Positions 9,108-37,730 of a DNA stretch of 37,730 bases are shown piece after piece (within the stretch, counting starts at the first letter, position 1; every line of letters begins with the position of its first letter). The stretch is from Candidatus Arthromitus sp. SFB-turkey. Its GTDB lineage: Bacteria > Bacillota > Clostridia > Clostridiales > Clostridiaceae. Location: assembly GCF_001655775.1 (NCBI RefSeq), contig NZ_LXFF01000015.1:1-37730 (forward strand), in the 5' to 3' direction. The notes beneath the pieces are model-generated. The model saw nothing but the letters and a program-made list of their open reading frames with translations, did no database searches and was not told the DNA's origin. The translations under genes and the position numbers were made by a program.

Positions 9108-10481
9108 ATGGTTTTTTCTAGTTTACTATTTCTCTTTTTTTTCCTACCTCTGGTTTTAATAATCTATTATATATCTCCAAAAAATATTAGACTTGCTATA
9201 TTATTCATAGCAAGTTTAATATTTTATGCTTGGGGTGAACCAGTATATATTATCTTAATAATATTTTCAACACTTGTAGATTATTGTATTGGTTTTCTCA
9301 TATATAAATTTTCCAATTCAAAATTCAAAAAAATATTTCTTTTAATTGTTTCAGTAACAATAAATTTATCTTTATTGGGTTTCTTTAAATACTCAAACTT
9401 TCTTATAAATATCATCAATTATATTTTTAAAACTAATTTTAATATGCTTGATATTTCTTTACCTATTGGAATTTCTTTCTACACTTTTCAAACATTATCA
9501 TACACAATAGATATTTTTAGAAATAAATTTAAACCTCAAAAAAACATTATAGCATTTGGTGCATATGTATCTTTATTTCCTCAATTAATAGCAGGTCCAA
9601 TAGTTACATATGAAAGTGTAGAAAATGATATAAACAATAAAAATCGTGAAAATATTTTGAAATTCAATGAAGGTGTTTGTAGATTCATTGAAGGTTTATC
9701 AAAAAAAATAATACTAGCAAATAATTTAGGGTATTTATTTGAAACTTTAAAATCTTCTGATTTAACAACTATGTCTACAATGACATCATGGCTTTGTATA
9801 TTATCATATTTTTTTCAAATATATTTTGACTTCAGTGGATACTCTGATATGGCAATAGGACTTGGAAAAATGTTCGGTTTTAATTTTAATGAAAATTTTA
9901 ATTATCCCTACATTTCAAGAAGTATATCAGAATTTTGGAGAAGGTGGCATATATCTCTTGGAAGTTGGTTTAAAAACTATTTATATATACCTTTAGGTGG
10001 TAATAAAGTAAAATTCAAATATTTAAACTTATTAATCGTTTGGATATTTACAGGACTTTGGCATGGTGCTAACTTAAATTTTTTACTTTGGGGACTATAC
10101 TTTTTTATAATAATAATGATCGAAAAATTATTTTTAATTAAATATTTAAACAAGTACAATATACTATCTAGAATATATACTTTATTTTTAATTTTAATTG
10201 GTTGGTGTATTTTTGTATTTGAAGATATAAATTATTTAATTTTATTTTTGAAAAAAATGTTTTCAGTTAATTTATTTATAGATAATTATTTCCTATACTA
10301 TTTTAAAAATTTTTTATTATATATTTTAATTGCATGTTTATTTTCTACTCCTATTATGAAAAACCTAAAACTAAAACTTCCCCAATTTATATCAAATACA
10401 TTTTTAATTTTAATTTTTATAATAAGTATATCTTTTATAGTTAATTCTTCATTTAACCCATTTTTATATTTCAGATTTTAA
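9108..10481 (+). CDS. MBOAT family membrane O-acyltransferase (AlgI/DltB-like)
   Basis: A polytopic membrane protein (457 aa, about ten hydrophobic segments) that probably moves acyl groups, usually acetyl, to an extracytoplasmic polymer. Diagnostic motifs: FYTFQTLSY and FPQLIAGPI in the first half, QIYFDFSGYSDMAIGLGKMF, FWRRWHISLGSWFKNYLYIPLGG with H281, and GLWHGAN with the putative catalytic H319. SD AAAGGA. The adjacent DHHW gene supplies the likely extracytoplasmic partner, as AlgJ/AlgX-type proteins do for AlgI. No dltA or dltC genes are in this window, so teichoic-acid D-alanylation is not indicated. The natural substrate is unknown. Confidence 0.93.
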   Translation: MVFSSLLFLFFFLPLVLIIYYISPKNIRLAILFIASLIFYAWGEPVYIILIIFSTLVDYCIGFLIYKFSNSKFKKIFLLIVSVTINLSLLGFFKYSNFLINIINYIFKTNFNMLDISLPIGISFYTFQTLSYTIDIFRNKFKPQKNIIAFGAYVSLFPQLIAGPIVTYESVENDINNKNRENILKFNEGVCRFIEGLSKKIILANNLGYLFETLKSSDLTTMSTMTSWLCILSYFFQIYFDFSGYSDMAIGLGKMFGFNFNENFNYPYISRSISEFWRRWHISLGSWFKNYLYIPLGGNKVKFKYLNLLIVWIFTGLWHGANLNFLLWGLYFFIIIMIEKLFLIKYLNKYNILSRIYTLFLILIGWCIFVFEDINYLILFLKKMFSVNLFIDNYFLYYFKNFLLYILIACLFSTPIMKNLKLKLPQFISNTFLILIFIISISFIVNSSFNPFLYFRF

Positions 10482-10502
10482 AAATTTAGGAGGTGGATAT
10501 CT

Positions 10503-11630
10503 ATTTTTAATAAAAAATATTTTATAACATACCTATTCTTATTAATAATTTTTTTATTTCCAATACTTCATATAACAATTAAAGACAATGATTTTTCATT
10601 AATTGAAAATAGATATTTAGAAAAATTTCCAAAATTTACTTTAGATAATTTTTTATCAGGAAATTTTTCTGAAAAATTAAATAACTATCTTGAAGACCAC
10701 TTTCCTTTTAGAAATCAATTTGTATCTTTAAATTCTTATTTTGAAATTATTATGGGAAGAAACGATATTAATGAAGTGTATTTAGCTAAAAATAACTACT
10801 TAATTGACATGTTTAACAAAATAGATTTAAATATTACAGATAGAAATATTAATCTAATAAATAAATTCTCCAAAAATATGAATGTAAGCCTTATGCTAAT
10901 TCCTACTTCTACGGAAGTTTTAAAAGATTATCTTCCAAAATTTTCTGTAAACATAAATCAAGAAGAATATTTAAATTATGTAGAAACCAATCTTAATAAA
11001 AATATTAACTTTATTAATCCCTTGCATATTTTAAAATCTAAAAAAAATGAGTATATCTACTACCGTACAGATCATCATTATACAACCTTCGGTGCATACT
11101 ACTCTTACTTAAAATTTTGTGAATCTTATAACTTAACTCCTCTTAAAATAAATGACTTTAAAATAACACAAATATCAAATGATTTTTTAGGATCACTTTT
11201 TTCAAATGTTAATCTAAATCACCAAAAAAAAGACTCTGTATACATTTTTGAACCATTAACCAAAAATGATTTAACAGTTTATTACGGTGACAGAGTAACA
11301 AACTCCCTTTACGAATTTTCACATTTACAAAATAATAGAAGTCACTATAATATTTTTTTAGATAACAATCATCCTTTAATTAAAATAAAAACATCTATAA
11401 AAAATGGTAAAAATATAGTAGTTATAAAAGATTCTTATGCAAATTCTTTCATACCATTTTTAACAAAAAATTTTGAGGAAATACATGTAATAGATTTACG
11501 ATTTTACAATTCAAATATAAATGCTTACTTAAATGAAAATAATTTAAAAGATATACTATTTTTTTATAATGTTAAAAACTTTTCAGAAGAAAACAATTTA
11601 ATTTTTATAAACAAATTAGAGGAGGATTAA
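10503..11630 (+). CDS. DHHW family protein (AlgJ/AlgX-like partner), probable AUU start
   Basis: Membrane-anchored extracytoplasmic protein predicted to work with the MBOAT enzyme. The first in-frame ATG is at 10752, but the frame is open upstream to 10503 and encodes the family N-terminus: a hydrophobic anchor (FITYLFLLIIFLFPIL, about residues 7-22), FSLIENRYLEKFPKF, and YLEDHFPFRNQF (62-73). No ATG, GTG or TTG occurs in that extension. AGGAGG at 10488-10493 is spaced 9 nt from an ATT at 10503, which I take as the start (375 aa). The signature motif is D190-H191-H192-Y193 (DHHY, not DHHW). KDSYANSF further on is also typical of the family. The next gene's SD overlaps its stop codon. Confidence 0.85.
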   Translation: MFNKKYFITYLFLLIIFLFPILHITIKDNDFSLIENRYLEKFPKFTLDNFLSGNFSEKLNNYLEDHFPFRNQFVSLNSYFEIIMGRNDINEVYLAKNNYLIDMFNKIDLNITDRNINLINKFSKNMNVSLMLIPTSTEVLKDYLPKFSVNINQEEYLNYVETNLNKNINFINPLHILKSKKNEYIYYRTDHHYTTFGAYYSYLKFCESYNLTPLKINDFKITQISNDFLGSLFSNVNLNHQKKDSVYIFEPLTKNDLTVYYGDRVTNSLYEFSHLQNNRSHYNIFLDNNHPLIKIKTSIKNGKNIVVIKDSYANSFIPFLTKNFEEIHVIDLRFYNSNINAYLNENNLKDILFFYNVKNFSEENNLIFINKLEED

Positions 11631-11633
11631 TTT

Positions 11634-12182
11634 TTGAAAAACAAAAATTTAATAATTCTTTTTAATACATTTTTTAAAATTGGTTTGTTTACTTTCGGTG
11701 GAGGATATTCTATGATACCTTTTATTGAAAAGGAGATAACTCAAAAACATAAATTCATTACATCAGATGAACTTTTAGATATTTTTTCAATTTCGGAATG
11801 TACTCCCGGTCCAATCTCTATAAATTGTGCAACTTTTATTGGATATAAAGTTTGTGGTTTTTTAGGTTCTTTAATATCAACCCTTGGAATTGTATTACCA
11901 TCATTTATTATAATTTTAATTCTTTCATTATTTTTTAATTCCCTAAAAGAGTTTTCAATAATAGTTAAATTTTTACAAGGAATTAAAGTCGGTGTTGTTA
12001 TACTTTTAATTTCTTCAATTATAAAAATAAATTCCAAATCACAAAAATCAAAATCCTATTATGTAATAATATTTTCAGTCCTTTTGTTATGCCTCTTAAC
12101 AAACATTAGTACTATAACAATTTTATTTTCTTCAATACTTCTATACTCTTTGATATTTACCATAAAACAAAAAAGGAGATAA
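11634..12182 (+). CDS. Chromate transporter family protein, short form (first of pair)
   Basis: A 182-aa single-domain CHR family membrane protein. Motifs: FKIGLFTFGGGYSMIPFIEKE (about 14-34), SECTPGPISIN (about 62-72) and GFLGSLISTLGIVLPS. About five to six hydrophobic segments. Short CHR proteins usually occur in tandem pairs and probably work as heterodimers; the partner follows after 6 nt. The start is TTG, with GAGGAGGAT overlapping the stop codon of the preceding gene. Family members export chromate, but in anaerobes the natural anion is often unknown, so substrate is left open. It is probably co-transcribed with the MBOAT/DHHW genes without an obvious functional link. Confidence 0.9.
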   Translation: MKNKNLIILFNTFFKIGLFTFGGGYSMIPFIEKEITQKHKFITSDELLDIFSISECTPGPISINCATFIGYKVCGFLGSLISTLGIVLPSFIIILILSLFFNSLKEFSIIVKFLQGIKVGVVILLISSIIKINSKSQKSKSYYVIIFSVLLLCLLTNISTITILFSSILLYSLIFTIKQKRR

Positions 12183-12188
12183 AACAAC

Positions 12189-12725
12189 TTGAATATATTC
12201 TTTACATTATTTATAACATTTTTCAAAATCGGTCTTTTTACAATAGGTGGAGGATATGCCATGATTCCTCTAATAAAAGAATATATTTTTAAATATTCAT
12301 GGGCCACCAATGAAGAACTTTTAGAATTTATTGCAATTTCTGAATCAACTCCTGGACCATTTGCAATTAATATTAGTACATTTATTGGTTTTAAAACTGG
12401 AGGATTTTTAGGAGCTCTCCTATCAACTCTCGGGGTTGTATTACCTTCATTTATAATTATTTTAATAATCATAAAATTCTTAAACAAATTCAAAAAAAAT
12501 AAAACATTACAATATGTTTTACAAAATTTAAGACCAATTATTTTATCTCTTTTAATTTACTCTGTATTAACTATATCTTTTAAAGTATTCTTTAAAGACA
12601 ACATTATAAATTTAAAACACATTTTTATATTCTTAATATTATCAATATTAAATTTAAATTTTAAATTTTCTCCAATAAAACTTATTTTAATTTCTGGTTT
12701 TCTAGGGGTTTTATTATTAAATTAA
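12189..12725 (+). CDS. Chromate transporter family protein, short form (second of pair)
   Basis: A 178-aa CHR-domain membrane protein paralogous to the preceding gene: FKIGLFTIGGGYAMIPLIKEY, SESTPGPFAIN and GFLGALLSTLGVVLPS align block by block. The start is TTG with AAGGAGAT about 8 nt upstream, overlapping the end of the first gene's frame region. It is the last gene of the plus-strand run and ends in a strong bidirectional terminator whose stem begins 6 nt after the stop. The two halves probably form one transporter. Confidence 0.9.
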   Translation: MNIFFTLFITFFKIGLFTIGGGYAMIPLIKEYIFKYSWATNEELLEFIAISESTPGPFAINISTFIGFKTGGFLGALLSTLGVVLPSFIIILIIIKFLNKFKKNKTLQYVLQNLRPIILSLLIYSVLTISFKVFFKDNIINLKHIFIFLILSILNLNFKFSPIKLILISGFLGVLLLN

Positions 12726-37635: not shown

Positions 37636-37671
37636 ACTTGTAAAGGAGTTATTTCAAAAATTAATTGTGTT

Positions 37672-37730
37672 ATGAAGGTATGTAAAATACACAAAAATTA
37701 TGATTTTAGAATTGTTTATAATAGAGGAAA
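37672..37730 (+). CDS. rnpA: Ribonuclease P protein component (5' end only)
   Basis: The protein subunit of RNase P, which matures tRNA 5' ends. Only about 19 codons are in the window; the visible product KIHKNYDFRIVYNRGK matches the RnpA start (KxxDFxxVYxxG). Start uncertain: the ATG at 37672 is 23 nt from the AAAGGAG SD (37642-37648), too far. An in-frame ATT at 37660 is 11 nt from it and would add four residues. The coordinates use the ATG. The gene runs off the right edge. Confidence 0.85.
   Translation, partial: MKVCKIHKNYDFRIVYNRG

Follow-up and report, generated by a model that had tools for sequence, protein, structure and literature searches.

The MBOAT–DHHW gene pair

The window analysed here, 37,730 nucleotides of the turkey segmented filamentous bacterium (SFB) genome (contig positions 1-37730, the contig measuring 57,760 bases; 1,631,326 bases in 41 contigs overall), carries a gene for an MBOAT-family O-acyltransferase and, behind it, a gene for a DHHW-family protein (Table 1). 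The top NCBIfam model for the MBOAT gene is DltB (E 9.1e-36), which stays under its cut-off (123.9 vs 375 bits), and for the DHHW protein a threshold of E 0.001 left no NCBIfam match. The predicted DHHW protein is a relative of the SGNH/AlgX-like acetyltransferases. Its signature reads DHHY in SFB (TDHHYTT, window positions 11070-11085); a motif search of 80 related loci returned DHHW in 70, DHHY in 3, another residue in 3 and no match in 4. Two ORFs of chromate-transporter type follow 3' of DHHW (11634-12725; Pfam was run on the first one), and the earliest start of both is a TTG behind a purine-rich, SD-like stretch.

Table 1. Features of the DHHW locus (window positions), genes with a conserved AUH start and a TGA-containing frame.
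Feature	Position	Strand	Start codon, turkey/rat SFB	Start codon, MAG.106	Remarks
MBOAT-family O-acyltransferase gene	9108..10481	+			PF03062, E 2.6e-26; directly 5' of DHHW
Extended Shine-Dalgarno (SD) AGGAGGTG	10488..10495	+			8 contiguous Watson-Crick pairs with anti-SD (9 including one G-U)
DHHW-family protein, 375 aa	10503..11630	+	ATT/ATT	ATG	PF14286, E 4e-40; PF16822 ALGX, E 3.8e-6
ATT, proposed AUU start codon	10503..10505	+			9 nt past AGGAGG; ATT in rat SFB too
N-terminal 83 residues	10503..10751	+			lost with a start at ATG 10752
First in-frame ATG	10752..10754	+			on the AUU-start reading, not the natural start
ABC ATPase, haem/siderophore type			ATT/ATT	ATT	best NCBIfam models under cut-offs
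Histidine kinase			ATT/ATT	ATT	HisKA and HATPase_c; shortened in rat
MnmH (mnmH)			ATT/ATT	ATT	above two NCBIfam cut-offs
Phosphodiester glycosidase			ATT/ATA		PF09992
infC			ATA/ATA	ATA	
Candidate selenoprotein	turkey contig C9, ~8.4-8.7 kb (T_C9|-|77869); rat 129789	- (turkey)			

The DHHW frame is open from 10482, right after the MBOAT stop (TAA, 10479-10481), to 11630, and holds no ATG, GTG or TTG before 10752. This first ATG lies 90 codons past the MBOAT stop and 83 codons past the ATT at 10503, which is separated from the MBOAT end by a 21-nt gap. A survey of 338,776 bases from this genome covered 276 overlap-resolved ORFs of at least 120 codons. Their first canonical start falls at a median codon of 4.5, and the DHHW ORF, at 90, ranks second; the sole ORF above it (position 136) is without family evidence.

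ATG 10752, as the first canonical start, would be the pick of a standard gene finder, and translation from it would leave turkey SFB with a truncated protein. The sequence-only reading had held that such a start would cut off the membrane anchor and that the 83 codons upstream are family-like and free of ATG, GTG and TTG, and both points are borne out. The 83 residues contain a hydrophobic anchor and the beginning of the DHHW domain (YLEDHFPFRN), and on their own match positions 1-44 of the Pfam DHHW profile (PF14286) with E 1.4e-6. They also align along their length with both congeners, with dN below dS: identity is 68% to MAG.106 (dN 0.22, dS 0.69) and 54% to rat SFB (dN 0.37, dS 1.79), over 81 aligned codons each, and the corresponding dN/dS values of the remainder of the protein are 0.21/1.30 and 0.30/1.71. 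By these comparisons, the residues before ATG 10752 are the real N-terminus of the DHHW protein and are under purifying selection. Outside SFB, a canonical codon lies within 25 codons of the aligned start, a loose criterion, in all 55 DHHW loci (of 79) whose match begins by query residue 15; the best canonical choice in 49 of them is ATG (41), GTG (5) or TTG (3), with 8 of the 49 having no SD-like element by the score used, and the further six were positive as well. A start at 10752, which would drop the anchor and the beginning of the DHHW domain, is very unlikely.

Probable initiation at ATT 10503

The AGGAGG at 10488-10493, which the same reading had placed 9 nt before ATT 10503, is there and extends to AGGAGGTG, 7 nt before the ATT. 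The sampled rat SFB sequence supplied the anti-SD, its 16S 3' end being GGATCACCTCCTTTCT. SD spacings of canonical starts sampled in SFB centre on 7-9 nt, and the DHHW ATT, 9 nt from AGGAGG, shows two marks of an infC-type start: an AUH codon without a compatible canonical codon, and an extended SD at normal spacing.

The comparison of orthologous starts that had been proposed as a check gives ATT in two of the three SFB species. The rat start region reads GGAGGTGTCGCAA-ATT-AAAAAGAATTAT, with the ATT behind GGAGGTG, and that of MAG.106 reads GGAGGATTTATA-ATG-AACAAGAATTAT; the rat ATT shares its alignment column with the homologous MAG.106 ATG, and the turkey ATT sits one codon further upstream. 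AUU is therefore not obligatory for DHHW, since MAG.106 uses ATG. The rat start carries some uncertainty because a further ATG, part of TAATG, stands in the same frame five codons 5' of the rat ATT, overlapping the MBOAT end and without a preceding SD; the rat gene likely, but not certainly, starts at the ATT, with the TAATG codon as a possible alternative. The conserved N-terminus, the rat ATT behind a like SD and the MAG.106 ATG give strong comparative support to initiation at AUU 10503, and we consider it highly probable that the turkey DHHW gene is translated from this codon.

The rat ATT behind GGAGGTG and the MAG.106 ATG also make two further explanations unlikely. The true codon at 10503 might be an ATG altered by sequencing or assembly error, for which one changed base would be enough in a genome described, in the accessible part of its report, as a metagenome-derived draft of 41 contigs (PMC9482736). 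However, rat SFB, a separate single-contig genome (1,515,556 bp), has ATT as well, and the same turkey genome holds ATT starts of three other genes that are conserved in rat and MAG.106, so that we regard such an error as extremely unlikely. Scarcely credible, too, is readthrough of the MBOAT TAA into an MBOAT–DHHW fusion that needs no separate start, as the two genes share a frame in the window and in MAG.106 but not in rat, a strong SD stands between them in all three species, and MAG.106 has a proper ATG.

How might initiation at AUU 10503 proceed? The extended SD AGGAGGTG would keep the 30S subunit at normal spacing, the initiator tRNA would then be accepted at a codon with a third-base mismatch, and Met would be inserted at AUU. 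Initiation at AUU being presumably weaker than at AUG, the second gene of the pair may be expressed below the first; output could even be very low, because in Listeria reporters ATT ranks under ATA. IF3, its own gene starting at AUA, may discriminate against AUH starts and could shift them together. Both a low DHHW output and a link to IF3 are plausible by analogy, the former with S. aureus and Listeria and the latter with infC. All three SFB genomes encode an IF3 with family sequence, and an alignment of 9 of 13 intended sequences, those recovered by a motif filter, displayed no obvious change that would explain relaxed start selection. Searched for tRNA genes, the 1.2 Mb of rat sequence gave 27 tRNAs and a tmRNA among those listed, with one tRNA-Met (CAT); the initiator tRNA was not identified among them.

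Probable AUH starts elsewhere in SFB genomes

The starting assumption that AUU starts are very rare does not hold for the SFB genus, where AUU and AUA are not exceptional. Among 354 turkey/rat orthologue pairs (at least 100 bits), a strong-SD non-canonical codon occupies the homologous position as ATH in both species in 6 pairs (Table 1) and as other codons in 2; one-sided hits were left out of this count. Every turkey ATT codon of the set stands 9 nt downstream of the AGGAGG register, rat spacings are 7-9 nt, and SD complementarity across the set amounts to 6-8 contiguous Watson-Crick pairs. Three members are second genes: DHHW, the ABC ATPase (6 nt 3' of a permease-like ORF) and the turkey histidine kinase, which overlaps the end of a 229-codon frame containing a response regulator; no ORF of at least 80 codons ends just upstream of the remaining members. 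MnmH homologues outside the genus mostly have ATG at the corresponding place (seven loci, one also with an upstream TTG). The rat histidine kinase frame (L269, rat 448190-448945) ends after 254 aa, past the H-box, and may therefore be decaying. A further conserved ATT/ATT site (T_C9|-|49996) was rejected as internal, as it sits in a GGGTG(I) loop.

A homology screen that made no use of SDs (376 pairs after overlap resolution; before it 146 rows, mostly antisense ORFs) returned an apparent extension of at least 7 aa in 30 pairs, mostly alignment spill-over. On our reading, four of these have genuine AUH starts (ATT or ATA) and two are genes with a TGA in frame (Sec), the rest being spill-over or antisense. 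A strong SD precedes all four genuine starts, compared with a strong-SD canonical start in 100 of the 354 pairs (Fisher p 0.007). This screen could not return DHHW and infC, since at least one of the two genomes has a canonical codon that overlaps their SD or comes before it.

An SD-anchored scan covered 693,777 bases from turkey and 1.2 Mb from rat (1.89 Mb of SFB sequence in total). It sought strong SDs with an open frame of at least 80 codons following at 7-9 nt, near the upstream stop of that frame, and counted as non-canonical those lacking a canonical start at 4-13 nt. Turkey gave 182 canonical anchors and 16 non-canonical ones, 6 of these ATT; rat gave 286 canonical and 18 non-canonical, 11 of them ATH (6 ATT, 3 ATA, 2 ATC). 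The raw SFB total of 17 ATH, 17 other and 468 canonical codons includes several false ATH, among them SelD and, as we read them, a few antisense or internal sites. Low-GC controls without infC loci (614,280 bases in 46 sequences, including 200 kb each of the genomes G010 and G028) yielded 0 ATH, 8 other and 188 canonical codons, and all controls without infC (1,040,648 bases) yielded 2 ATH and 25 other, i.e. 27 non-canonical, with 327 canonical. The ATH excess of SFB over the low-GC controls has a Fisher p of 0.005 against canonical and 0.013 against other codons. The scan is able to see AUH starts, since it picked up 8 infC loci of other Firmicutes that were kept among the controls.

Could this excess be an artefact of very low GC and the picking of examples? 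About five of the 17 raw ATH read as false or doubtful (T_L194 12455, SelD after an in-frame TGA, and rat 979877, 653053 and 941415), and the controls comprise less sequence and are slightly richer in GC (31% vs 27%). On the other side stand the 17 raw ATH against none in the low-GC controls without infC, and conservation between species that share ~69% amino-acid identity, as given in the accessible part of PMC7474095. We consider an artefact improbable and an AUH enrichment at the level of the genus likely.

Additional candidates lie outside the conserved pairs. An ATT at turkey L134 7428, behind the weaker SD GGGGGAG, would open a frame with no Pfam match and no rat match within the sample. 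Rat 519581 is a candidate ATC start of an ORF that we take to be diacylglycerol-kinase/PAP2-like, and the ATT ORF at rat 941415 is presumably SpoIIIAA-like; neither has a turkey match within the sample. A short conserved ORF of 86 codons or more (86 aa in rat) has an apparent ATA start behind GAGGTGA in both species, outside the 354 pairs (turkey C23 136670, i.e. L132 16670, where it is cut by the contig end; rat 471303).

A bolder and more doubtful proposition, which we put forward as a tentative possibility, is that AUU, AUA and AUC form a small but regular group of SFB start codons, backed in every case by an extended SD, in ~10-20 genes per 1.5-1.6 Mb genome; this figure is an extrapolation from samples that cover 42% (turkey) and 79% (rat) of the genome. 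The level of IF3 could then tune the set jointly, because infC itself starts at AUA, and would do so across surface-polysaccharide modification, metal/haem-type uptake, signalling and tRNA selenation.

rnpA and TGA-containing frames

The sequence-only reading had named an AUU at 37660 as a second, weaker candidate, for rnpA. We rejected it, because the ATG at 37672 aligns with the ATGs of the congeners and suffices: from there the protein begins MKVCKIHKN, and the congeners' ATG-initiated proteins begin MKVYKIHKN and MKVYKIKKN. Two N letters right past the window end at 37730, inside rnpA (L039 1544-1545, contig C15), are an assembly gap or masked stretch, across which the frame shifts.

In turkey (T_C23 67808, i.e. 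L129 7809) and rat (406517), a SelD-like gene carries a TGA in frame where Sec is presumed, and the sampled rat sequence contains a tRNA-Sec (L226). The frame that directly follows another in-frame TGA (LDYSK-TGA-TSVRKAK), presumably ArsC/Spx-like, is conserved in both species and is a candidate selenoprotein (Table 1).

Implications and relation to known systems

Starts of the infC type are known; the DHHW AUU start and an apparent genus-level set are new. We found no report on SFB start codons in the open-licence literature, nor anything there for 'ATT start codon' with 'Clostridium', and the term 'start codon' is absent from the accessible parts of three SFB genome papers (PMC9482736, PMC12942676, PMC7474095). 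As far as sequence comparison can tell, the DHHW AUU start is real and comparatively well supported; of greater interest is the likely enrichment across the genus.

Such starts matter because ordinary gene finders shorten the proteins concerned: programs limited to ATG, GTG and TTG will truncate or miss AUH-started proteins. SFB adhere to the host gut and signal to it, and the partner of a surface acyltransferase, a sensor kinase and an ATPase for uptake are among the genes affected. Should the set prove real at the protein level, SFB would lend themselves to the question of whether IF3, together with extended SDs, coordinates several genes and not infC alone.

The DHHW start resembles that of infC in having an AUH codon behind a strong SD (for infC, AUA in each of the three SFB species, and AUU or AUC at the outgroup loci that were read). 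According to the accessible part of PMC9410913, infC is autoregulated by its product, IF3, whereas DHHW has no role in translation, so its codon would set a level and not close a feedback loop.

For S. aureus, the accessible part of PMC13009471 describes four AUH sites including infC, tested by Ribo-Ret and reporters; cvfC1 (AUU), ccpN and citZ (both AUA) have conserved AUH starts with extended SDs, and AUU/AUA starts give ~10% of AUG output in poor medium. The genes in SFB are different ones, and their starts are known here from comparison alone. Listeria offers a further Firmicute with fixed AUH-type starts: the available part of PMC13068326 lists six non-canonical starts as fixed, out of 2265 conserved genes (infC ATT, rnhC ATC and four more) and reporters ranking ATG > ATA > ATT, the ATT reporter giving undetectable eGFP fluorescence and a weak Western signal. 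Set against these 6 of 2265, the 6 of 354 pairs in SFB are more frequent (Fisher p 0.003), a rough comparison because the two analyses used different methods and gene sets and the SFB genomes were sampled in part. In E. coli, pcnB is likewise a gene outside the initiation factors with an AUU start, published, in the text accessible to us, as translationally limited; E. coli has two AUU genes by the accessible part of PMC9410913, whereas the SFB sample already holds more.
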